Below, piece by piece: positions 8,049 through 10,606 of a DNA stretch of 64,000 nt. Each line of letters opens with the position of its first letter. The stretch's first letter is position 1. The position numbers were made by a program, and so were the translations under genes. This DNA is from Blastopirellula sediminis (GTDB lineage: Bacteria > Planctomycetota > Planctomycetia > Pirellulales > Pirellulaceae), in contig NZ_JAJKFT010000010.1 of the NCBI RefSeq assembly GCF_020966755.1, positions 992,001 through 1,056,000 of the forward strand, given 5' to 3'. The notes under the pieces were generated by a model that worked only from the letters and a program-made list of their open reading frames with translations, was not told the DNA's origin and did not search any database.

Positions 8049-8176
8049 CGCATCTCCTCTTTGCGCTAAATGAGGCGGGGTGCAGATTTGCAATCCCCTA
8101 TTTTATCGCTTTAGCGTCCCCCGCGTAACCGGTCGATGACGGCGAGACCGCTTCACAAGCGACGAAAGCGGCGGCA

Positions 8177-8303
8177 AATGTCTAATGACTAATCACTAAT
8201 GTCTAATGCCAAGAAGCGCCTTCTCCATCCTTTTAGACATTAGTCATTAGACATTCGTCATTTACCAGCGGCCGCATTCCCTCGCTTGCGCTGCGGGCTA
8301 GTG
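8177..8303. repeat. Family A stop-codon-associated repeat, copy 1 (one core arm)
   Basis: A 17-base perfect inverted repeat (8177-8193 with 8239-8255, containing TGTCTAATGACTAAT) is followed by one family A core arm at about 8274-8303. Read on the minus strand the arm is a hairpin with CCC/GGG outer pairs and a GCAA loop. It touches the bufC stop codon at 8304-8306. The left core arm found in other copies is missing. Confidence 0.75.
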
Positions 8304-9170
8304 TTACGGCTTAACCAGTTGCACGAAGAAACCCTCGCGGGCGAAGCGGCGGAACCAATCGGGCAATTGGCGGGCAAGCGCATCCAAATCGGCCGCTTGT
8401 TCGGCCGCTTGCTCAATCGCGTCGCCGACCGACTCACCGGTCATCAGCGAGTGAAGCAGCAGGAACTCTCCCTGCTCCAGCGGAACCCTCCGCACGATGT
8501 AGTCGCGCCGCGACAGCGCCAGCCAGGTCGGTTCGGCCGGCGGAATGGTGAGCGTTTGGCCAGAACGAAACTGCGTGAAGTAATCGTTCACCGGAAAACG
8601 GTACGCATGCAAGTTCAAACATGGCGCCGCGATCAACTTGCAATCGGGCCACTGGTCAGGCGACACCTGGGCGAGATCCTCCGGCGAGATCACGCCGCTC
8701 TGCTCCACGCCTGGACCGTCGAACGTTTGCGCTACGCTCCATTCAAACGACGCGAGATCAATCAGAAAGTCGGCCCAGCCAGGTTCGCCGCCGTCGCTCG
8801 TTGGGCGGGTCGCTTCCAGGTGTTCGACAAACTGATCGGCGAGTCGCGACAAGGTGTAGCTGGTCGAAGGACGCTTGTCCAAGTAGTCGAGCGCGAACCC
8901 ATCGAACAACTCTTGCCCGAGCGTTTCGCAAAGAGCCGGAAACTGCTCGCGCATGCACTCGACAAGCCGCGCGAAGTAGGCGTTGCCGTAAACCTGCAAA
9001 CGCTGCAGACTCGTCCGCTTTTCGCTCCGCTCGATCACTTGCTCGACCTGGTCGCTCGCCACGTCGATCCATTGCCGCGATGCGTCGATGCCGGCCGAGA
9101 CTCCGCCGGGGCAAGAGATCACGCTTTGCATCCAGCGCTGTAGCTTCGCAAGTTGCGCAGGCTCGCTCAT
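8304..9170 (-). CDS. bufC: DUF2063 (BufC-like) partner protein of the DUF692 enzyme
   Basis: A 288-residue protein of the DUF2063 family, starting MSEPAQLAKLQRWMQ. The N-terminal helical domain contains YGNAYFARLVECMREQFPALCE, typical of this family. In bufferin and related pathways this protein binds the precursor and assists the DUF692 iron enzyme. The ATG at 9170 overlaps the bufB stop by four bases (ATGA), indicating translational coupling. An in-frame upstream extension to 9332 lies inside bufB and was discarded. Confidence 0.85.
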   Translation of the reverse strand: MSEPAQLAKLQRWMQSVISCPGGVSAGIDASRQWIDVASDQVEQVIERSEKRTSLQRLQVYGNAYFARLVECMREQFPALCETLGQELFDGFALDYLDKRPSTSYTLSRLADQFVEHLEATRPTSDGGEPGWADFLIDLASFEWSVAQTFDGPGVEQSGVISPEDLAQVSPDQWPDCKLIAAPCLNLHAYRFPVNDYFTQFRSGQTLTIPPAEPTWLALSRRDYIVRRVPLEQGEFLLLHSLMTGESVGDAIEQAAEQAADLDALARQLPDWFRRFAREGFFVQLVKP

Positions 9171-10084
9171 TCGATCTCCGGCGCAACAAAGTGAAGGGGA
9201 TGGGGCGCGTGAACTTCGCCGCTTGGCGTTTCGGTCGACGTCGGCAGTTCGCCTAACTGCGAGGTGATGTGGTCGCGGGCCTTCAGCACTTCGGCATGCA
9301 GGACGTCGAACGGCGGAATGTTGGCGTCCCATTCCAAGAGCGTCGACGCTCCGCCGGTCAGCTCGTACGCCAACCGATAGAGCTGCCAGACCGGATCGAT
9401 CACCGCGGCGTCGTGCGTGTCGATGCAGTAGTCGCCCATGTTGGTGTGGCCCGCCAGATGAAACTGCACGACCCGCTCGTGAGGAACGCCGCGCACGTAT
9501 CCGGCCGGATCAAAGTCATGATTGACGCCGGAGACGTAGACGTTGTTCACATCAAGCAGCAGTCCGCAGTCCGCTTCCTCCGACATCGCCGTCAGAAACT
9601 CCCACTCGGTCATCGTCGACGCGGCGAAGGTGACGTACGAACTGGGATCTTCCAGCACGAGCGGACGTTCGAGAAACTCCTGCACCGTTTTGATGCGCGC
9701 GACGACATGTGCGAGCGACTCTTCGTTGTACGGAATCGGAAGCAAGTCGTGCGAGTTGCGGCCTGCGACTCCGGTCCAGCAAAGATGATCGGAGATCCAG
9801 CGAGCGTTGATCTCGTTGGCTAAACGTTTCAGCTTCGCCAGGTAAGCGAAGTCGAGCGGATCGGTGCTGCCGATCGACATCGAAACGCCGTGCATCACGA
9901 TCGGGTAACGTTCTGCGATTTGGTCGAGGACATAGCGCGGACGCCCTTGCGTGTCGATGTAGTTCTCCGAGATGATCTCGAACCAATCGACGGCCGGCCA
10001 TTGCTGCAGAATGTGGCCGAAGTGGGCGGCGCGAAGTCCGACCCCCAGTCCCAAGTTTTGATGGCCCAGCCGCGCGGCGGTCAT
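9167..10084 (-). CDS. bufB: DUF692 multinuclear non-haem iron enzyme (BufB-like)
   Basis: A 305-residue TIM-barrel protein of the DUF692/MNIO family. Candidate metal-site segments are visible in order: FEIISENY, MHGVSMSIGS, ISDHLCW, LLDVNNVYVS, FHLAGH and LLEWDANIP. Characterised members modify Cys residues of ribosomally made peptides, for example to thiooxazoles in bufferins or oxazolone/thioamide in methanobactin. Here it lies between a Cys-rich precursor gene and a DUF2063 gene, so Cys modification of that precursor is the likely role. The exact product cannot be read from sequence. Confidence 0.9.
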   Translation of the reverse strand: MTAARLGHQNLGLGVGLRAAHFGHILQQWPAVDWFEIISENYIDTQGRPRYVLDQIAERYPIVMHGVSMSIGSTDPLDFAYLAKLKRLANEINARWISDHLCWTGVAGRNSHDLLPIPYNEESLAHVVARIKTVQEFLERPLVLEDPSSYVTFAASTMTEWEFLTAMSEEADCGLLLDVNNVYVSGVNHDFDPAGYVRGVPHERVVQFHLAGHTNMGDYCIDTHDAAVIDPVWQLYRLAYELTGGASTLLEWDANIPPFDVLHAEVLKARDHITSQLGELPTSTETPSGEVHAPHPLHFVAPEIE

Positions 10085-10153
10085 GACGTTCTCATCATGT
10101 GCGCTAGCCGGCGCGGAACGATCGCCGCGCCGGACGTGAATCGAGAAGACGAA

Positions 10154-10606
10154 TTACAGCATCGGGGCCGGGGCCGGTTTGGCCTCTTTGCCCGCTTCTT
10201 TCATCTTGGCTTCGAACTTTTCGCGAGCTTCGTCCCAGGCGCCTTCCATCAGCGGAATGGCGCAACCGCCTTTCCCTTTGCACTCGTTCAAGCCGACTTC
10301 CTTGCCGCAGCCCCCTTGCCCTTTGCATTCGTTATGGCCGCCGCAGGCATGCGCCGCGAGGGACGAACAAGCGCCGGCCCCGGCGCAATCATTGTCGCCC
10401 CCTTTTCCTTTCCCCTTGCACTCATTCAAACCGCGGCACAGGTGAAACTCGGCGGCAGCTGCACCGCCGCTCCCCGTATCAGCGACATCCGGCTTACCGC
10501 TTTCGCCGCAACCGAGCGAGACGCCCCCGATCATTCCGCCCAAAGCGGCGGCCGAGAGACGGTTGAAGTCGCGACGATCGAGATTTCGTTTGTCGTTGGT
10601 GCTCAT
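10154..10606 (-). CDS. bufA: Bufferin-like Cys-rich precursor peptide with Tat-type signal
   Basis: A 150-residue protein. The N-terminus has a twin-arginine motif (RR at 11-12, RRDFNRLSAAALGG), a hydrophobic stretch and a lipobox-like SLGC ending at Cys33. The core, about residues 55-121, holds nine Cys in Gly-rich repeats with NECKG three times, HACGG once and two GGC ends (NECKGQGGC, NECKGKGGC). The pattern resembles BufA2-type bufferin metallophores. A charged helical tail follows. It is the first gene of the operon, with GGAC upstream of the ATG. Modified bufferins bind copper; the metal bound here is unknown. Tat export and lipidation are predictions. Confidence 0.8.
   Translation of the reverse strand: MSTNDKRNLDRRDFNRLSAAALGGMIGGVSLGCGESGKPDVADTGSGGAAAAEFHLCRGLNECKGKGKGGDNDCAGAGACSSLAAHACGGHNECKGQGGCGKEVGLNECKGKGGCAIPLMEGAWDEAREKFEAKMKEAGKEAKPAPAPML

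Follow-up and report, generated by a model that had tools for sequence, protein, structure and literature searches.

Bufferins and oxazolins have been called unusual RiPPs for carrying Sec signal peptides (for bufferins, PMC12452194). The bufferin Buf1 binds copper through thiooxazoles derived from cysteine, BufA2 precursors have 6 or 12 conserved cysteines, and the genome-mining study that reports this holds that something must keep the peptide from being exported before it is modified (Antoine et al. 2025, PMC12452194). The oxazolin system HvfABC combines an MNIO enzyme with an HvfC-type partner and uses the signal peptide as leader. A related Microbulbifer operon with EGKCG repeats left no trace in the proteome, whether or not copper was supplied (PMC12538549). 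The DAG-RiPPs include the lipidated oxazolin NedA, in which a precursor with a lipoprotein signal is accompanied by an MNIO (PMC12636315), and captophorins are thiooxazole RiPPs of an MNIO and a PME-type 1 protein, with a Cys-Lys group among them (PMC13097082). The marks of a thiooxazole product of the captophorin or bufferin kind are 5-thiooxazole on cysteine, absorbance at ~305 nm and binding of copper.

The Tat system exports cargo that is completed before it leaves the cytoplasm. For lanthipeptide display, its use was raised merely as speculation in PMC5686179. The terms 'Tat', 'twin-arginine' and 'planctomyc' are absent from the main text of PMC12452194, as are 'Tat' and 'twin-arginine' from that of PMC12636315 and 'Tat' and 'planctomyc' from PMC13097082. 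Among the matches listed for the open-access literature, no natural Tat-exported RiPP was found and, from 2024 on, no planctomycete bufferin. Bufferin terms and names of Planctomycetota occurred together, among the matches listed from 2024 on, only in PMC12636315, where the lipidated oxazolin is demonstrated and Planctomycetota are named once, for ChrH-like enzymes, in the parts of the article covered.

The window analyzed here is a stretch of 64,000 nucleotides from Blastopirellula sediminis. Its minus strand holds three genes that encode, in 5' to 3' order, a RiPP precursor, an MNIO and a DUF2063 protein (Table 1). An earlier note on this DNA had listed a Cys-rich peptide gene, a DUF692 gene and a DUF2063 gene in this order, with no strand given and with a 4-base overlap of the last two; the coordinates were confirmed, and the overlap was located to positions 9167-9170, which are common to the stop codon of the MNIO gene and the ATG of the DUF2063 gene. 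The gap between the precursor and MNIO genes is 69 bp. The note's reading of a bufferin-like operon was borne out by an MNIO that scores over the BufB cut-off, a DUF2063 partner and a precursor family that matches BufA2. Thus, the operon is real and of the bufferin kind, and is set apart by a twin-arginine signal, a nine-Cys core and a follower helix. The genes and their homologies are direct observations; the operon probably makes a modified, metal-binding peptide of bufferin type. As the best overall reading of the sequences, we propose with a probability of about two in three that this product is a Tat-exported, probably lipid-anchored, copper-binding thiooxazole peptide.

Table 1. Features of the bufferin-type operon, in positions of the window.
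Feature	Position	Strand	Remarks
RiPP precursor gene	10154..10606	-	150 aa; coordinates include stop
Signal peptide, residues 1-33	10508..10606	-	R11 R12 in DRRDFNRL, weakly hydrophobic h-region, lipobox-like SLG-C33
G-M-I-G-G, residues 24-28, candidate leader element	10523..10537	-	instance of the G-hydrophobic-hydrophobic-x-G motif
Core, C57 to C115	10262..10438	-	nine Cys, three NECKG
C-terminal follower, residues 118-150	10157..10255	-	predicted helix 121-137
MNIO (DUF692) enzyme, BufB type	9167..10084	-	305 aa; NF050167 match over cut-off
DUF2063 partner, fits PME-type 1 with RRE	8304..9170	-	288 aa; Pfam profile and fold match

The MNIO was the only one found in its 7.05 Mb genome. It scored 367.5 bits against Pfam MbnB_TglH_ChrH (cut-off 25) and 361.2 bits against NCBIfam MNIO_BufB (NF050167), which passes the cut-off of 310, and remained under the cut-off of NCBIfam HvfB (271.2 bits; cut-off 360). 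Its best solved relative by sequence was 3BWW (E 1.5e-49). Residues H65, D99, H100, E145, N180, H209, D222, H224, E251 and D253 were identical in all 134 rows of an MNIO alignment that takes in near copies, and H189 was kept in 132 of them. These residues are the ones expected at the metal and catalytic site, and part of the assignment of iron ligands follows PMC13419390. Among 79 MNIO rows of the follower type (near copies included), 76 had Ala directly after the catalytic Asp and the other 3 had Ser; in 30 other rows this residue was Asp in 12, Ala in 11, Glu in 4 and Gln in 3. By contrast, an Asp is reported at this position for the MNIOs of Cys-Lys captophorins (PMC13097082), to which the present system is similar in its gene pair and in the Cys-Lys motifs of its precursor; the window MNIO has Ala, and none of the 79 follower-type rows has Asp.

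The DUF2063 partner scored 64 bits against Pfam DUF2063 (cut-off 27.2). It missed the cut-off of the NCBIfam HvfC model (64.2 bits; cut-off 142), and HvfABC further differs from the window system by its EGKCG repeats and Sec signal. The predicted structure of the partner (pLDDT 96.5) matched TglI (8hci_A, E 1e-5) and NGO1945 (3dee, E 2.6e-5) by Foldseek, and on the basis of these matches to its model the partner fits a PME-type 1 protein with an RRE domain. The fold match of the model to the RRE protein TbiB1 was weak (E 0.70), and a sequence search of the PDB returned nothing relevant (best E 0.25).

The counts of three NECKG motifs and nine core cysteines given by the earlier note for the precursor both held; only three of the nine core cysteines stand before Lys, and a tenth cysteine, C33, sits at the end of the signal peptide. 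When compared with bufferin precursor profiles, a check proposed in the same note, the precursor gave a weak match to NCBIfam BufA2 (NF050166; 23 bits, E 6.6e-5). The closeness to BufA2 claimed earlier stands as relatedness, while the equivalog cut-off of 60 bits is missed and the rule of 6 or 12 cysteines does not hold. All 76 members of a family alignment (A2, the window precursor with 75 of 88 rule-passing relatives) matched the BufA2 profile at E<=1, and the 12-Cys relative L038, in which the signal has no arginine pair (RR-less), passed the cut-off with 67.3 bits. Cysteine spacings were 5-10-5-7-5-5-8-5 in the window precursor, 5-5-6-5-5-7-5-5-8-5 in the 11-Cys relative L011, 5-5-6-5-5-7-5-5-6-5-5 in L038 and 5-5-6-5-12-22-5-5-6-5-12 in a 12-Cys precursor of Pseudoalteromonas. 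Six of the eight spacings in the window precursor are as in the 12-Cys type, and the remaining two, of 10 and 8, fall where cysteines appear to have been lost; this suggests a form that lost C3, C4 and C10 of twelve, and the spacings may account for the low BufA2 score. The system is like BufA2/Buf2 (Buf_6/12Cys, PMC12452194) in spacings that largely follow duplicated six-Cys units, in its CxGxNxCKG motifs and its operon of MNIO and DUF2063 genes, and unlike it in the nine core cysteines, the twin-arginine signal, the follower helix and the score under the cut-off.

Nine cysteines per core were counted in 88 of 98 distinct follower-type precursors, eleven in 5, eight in 3 and ten in 2. These 98 (71 from the best-80 relative loci and 27 from other genomes) have in common the follower segment ..AW..AR..FE..M...GK...AP, which is absent from both 12-Cys forms aligned beside them. 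Within the follower the helix is predicted in a block with pLDDT 75-83, and the AlphaFold model of the core is disordered (pLDDT 39-61). The rule applied found no core in L047 or L084, and L067 (long-tailed, RR-less and of other architecture) was not assigned to the follower class. Together with L063 and L064, from other planctomycetes, L067 has an MNIO and a long precursor built of spaced units of the CxGxNxCKGLGGC type. Pfam DUF7640 matched 4 of 18 precursors in a smaller alignment, A1 (best E 7.1e-7), and the NCBIfam 'lipo-invert' C-terminal anchoring domain matched 11 of the 76 in A2 (best E 3.2e-4). The nearest relative among the best 80 of 378 was that of Blastopirellula marina DSM 3645, with 76% identity over the precursor. 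In the genome of the window, the precursor was the only full-length match (E 1.1e-57), followed by two matches with E 0.63 and 1.08 that covered the N-terminus only. One of these two, L154, is an open frame with a Tat-like N-terminus, NRRDFLKQSAAAAGALAMAG; the other, L153, has ILGGMLAG and no RR pair.

The leader, which the earlier note had called distinct, carries the twin-arginine motif RRDFNRL and a lipobox-like cysteine. Its RRxFxxL context fits the Tat consensus. R11 and R12 were invariant in the 76-row precursor alignment, and RRx[FLV] was present in 97 of the 98 follower-type precursors (RRxF in 93, RRxL in 3 and RRxV in one, the L128 fusion described below), with L052 counted as the exception; the motif and its conservation are observed directly. 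By script, RRxF was found in 76 of 80 relative loci, with RRDF in L084 (no core in frame) and RRxL in L112, L134 and L145, and these loci are the best 80 of 378 relatives when ordered by how closely they resemble the precursor of the window, a ranking that may favor similar N-termini. As a control, 112 signal-like N-termini were drawn from 564 further ORFs in the window and in the 80 loci; RRx[FLVIMW] was present in 13, some of which are probably true Tat proteins, and in none of the nine with a lipobox-like cysteine.

The h-region was less hydrophobic in the follower-type precursors (1.68) than in 19 RR-less relatives (2.15; p 1.2e-8, with rows that are not independent) when the N-termini of the latter were set by hand, each being found in its locus. 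A first comparison had given no clear difference (p 0.08, with RR slightly higher), as the starts of the RR-less precursors were misplaced. In ten RR-bearing precursors of the 12-Cys type the value was 2.09, close to that of the RR-less group, and the case for Tat is therefore weaker for those ten. At E<=1, the NCBIfam models TAT_signal_seq and formate_TAT matched 22 and 14 of the 76 aligned precursors, respectively, and the Pfam Tat-signal model matched 5 of the 18 rows of A1. By contrast, no Tat model matched 15 RR-less control precursors (14 of the 19 plus that of Pseudoalteromonas). The best Tat match of the window precursor itself had an E of 0.38, under the cut-off. TatC was detected in the genome of the window (202.6 bits); of 11 further genomes tested, 10 also had it. 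A twin-arginine motif, a weakly hydrophobic h-region and a genomic TatC, the sequence features by which a Tat substrate is judged, were thus all found.

The lipobox at C33 is imperfect, with Ser at -3; by a crude rule, a lipobox-like cysteine was present in 73 of the 98 follower-type relatives and missing in 25. A precursor with a lipoprotein signal is also known from NedA (PMC12636315), although the signal of the window precursor is of the twin-arginine type. A G-hydrophobic-hydrophobic-x-G motif also occurs in the signal region. It was counted in 16 of the 19 RR-less precursors (shuffle mean 1.8), in all ten RR-bearing ones of the 12-Cys type (1.9) and in 87 of the 97 of follower type (9.3), all of them groups of related, non-independent rows. 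It was not seen in the Pseudoalteromonas precursor. Since RR and RR-less signals alike carry this motif, it is a candidate for the element recognized by the RRE.

The precursor and its enzyme were observed to co-occur. Of 40 sampled genomes (the class of the window and closer kin), 25 had both a precursor and a strong MNIO relative (E<1e-100) and the other 15 had neither, one of these (G307) with a distant MNIO (E 2.3e-27). Across 392 sampled planctomycete genomes, an MNIO relative (E<=1e-20) was found in 83 and a precursor match (E<=1e-5) in 61, one of which, G221, had no listed MNIO. An MNIO was present in 53 of the 80 relative loci and absent from 27, where at most 6 kb on each side was covered, often cut by contig ends. 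As 12 of 13 genomes tested from these 27 carry an MNIO elsewhere, split loci or second precursors are likely. L077, L080, L108, L129 and L137 have family precursor genes alone, with no MNIO within ~6 kb and MNIOs elsewhere in the genomes. Eight of the 80 loci came from Verrucomicrobiota MAGs. A tblastn search of plasmids with the 12-Cys precursor L038 returned one record, from Pseudoalteromonas, so that export type beyond the two phyla is hardly sampled. Partner proteins were aligned as the window protein with 72 of 109 references (A3).

In a quick tree of 125 MNIOs (LG+G4, with SH-aLRT support only), the follower-type enzymes fell in one branch of 84 rows (98, starred), which comprised 72 RR-bearing rows of follower type, 11 for which no precursor had been scored, and L052. 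A neighboring branch of 15 rows was mixed, with 10 RR and 5 RR-less. On this tree, export type needs at least 4 changes and architecture 2, and the follower group needs 8 if unscored rows count as outside. L052, which was miscoded as 12_Tat in the tree, has a degenerate eight-Cys precursor with no credible signal peptide, and its MNIO falls inside the Tat clade. A separate arrangement was seen in a bufferin operon of a Gemmataceae MAG. Its MNIO and DUF2063 genes flank a single frame of 356 aa (L128:1749-2819), in which a membrane domain that by eye resembles DoxX is joined to a twin-arginine-like segment and to a second bufferin core plus follower; it is a natural DoxX-bufferin fusion with the RR internal.

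Around the operon itself, no DoxX gene was recognized by eye in the window, a further difference from BufA2/Buf2. ORFs of >=100 aa around the window operon and in the 80 relative loci were clustered by blastp, and the commonest neighbor family, apart from precursor, MNIO, DUF2063 and overlapping or antisense frames, occurred in only 9 of 81 loci. No shared upstream regulatory motif was evident by eye in the window and six relatives, and a sigma-70 scan of the upstream DNA found 0 sites with 0.7 expected. Positions 8173-8266, immediately beyond the operon's 3' end, hold an inverted repeat of 34 nt with 85% complementarity and a 26-nt gap. It is built of heptamers such as TTAGACA/TTAGTCA, and a 20-nt piece of it recurs at one other site in the genome.

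For the precursor product we infer modification, Tat use, lipidation, a bound metal and a physiological role as follows. In the cytoplasm, the RRE-type DUF2063 partner would bind the precursor through the signal peptide as leader, and perhaps through the C-terminal helix as well. The MNIO would then oxidize several core cysteines, most likely to 5-thiooxazoles (-4 Da each), and the matured peptide would be exported by Tat rather than Sec. After cleavage behind residue 32 and lipidation on C33, the peptide would be held on the periplasmic face of a membrane, where it would bind and buffer copper or a similar soft metal. Points that weigh against this reading are the imperfect lipobox, the Ala behind the catalytic Asp of the MNIO, the 27 relative loci in which no MNIO was seen and, as regards function, the undetected Microbulbifer operon.

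The twin-arginine pair admits another explanation, that of an ordinary Sec/SPII bufferin in which the RRE domain of the partner, and not Tat, reads the RR pair in the leader. We consider it unlikely, given the fit of the RRxFxxL context to the Tat consensus, the less hydrophobic h-region, Tat models that match RR precursors but not the RR-less ones, and RR-less relatives that manage with related enzymes and without the pair. The RR could nevertheless be kept for RRE binding rather than for Tat, and the disordered core model, which offers no obvious folded cargo, speaks against Tat. The G-hydrophobic-hydrophobic-x-G motif of both RR and RR-less precursors likewise indicates that something besides Tat constrains this segment. 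The signal peptide acts as leader in HvfA (PMC13419390) and, by preliminary results, in Buf1, and roughly 16% of Buf2 have predicted lipoprotein signals and are treated as Sec-exported (PMC12452194). It is quite improbable that the product is a Cys-rich lipoprotein with no modification or a different one and with a metallothionein-like or redox role, with chemistry other than thiooxazole and a metal other than copper: the few cysteines before Lys, the MNIO pocket residue unlike the Cys-Lys group, the departure from the 6/12-Cys rule and the lack of a metal gene that would tie the operon to copper (no neighbor family being common enough) favor such a protein, but the BufB-level MNIO score, the conserved metal-site residues, the PME-type 1 partner and the agreement of precursor and close MNIO relative in presence or absence across 40 of 40 genomes argue against it.

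Returning to Tat export of a matured bufferin-type peptide, this is the part of the finding worth testing. Tat would be a simple answer to what stops bufferin export before modification. We lean slightly towards the view that Tat is the natural export route of a RiPP clade found in Planctomycetota and Verrucomicrobiota. The precursor would stay in the cytoplasm until the MNIO complex has oxidized its cysteines, and perhaps until metal is bound, and would leave it as a completed metal buffer with a lipid anchor. The large apparent Tat clade beside RR-less lineages provides a natural comparison for the question of export before modification, and candidate Cys-modified metallophores would be extended to planctomycetes. 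If the proposal is true, proofreading by Tat would solve how a RiPP that bears a signal peptide avoids export before it is modified.
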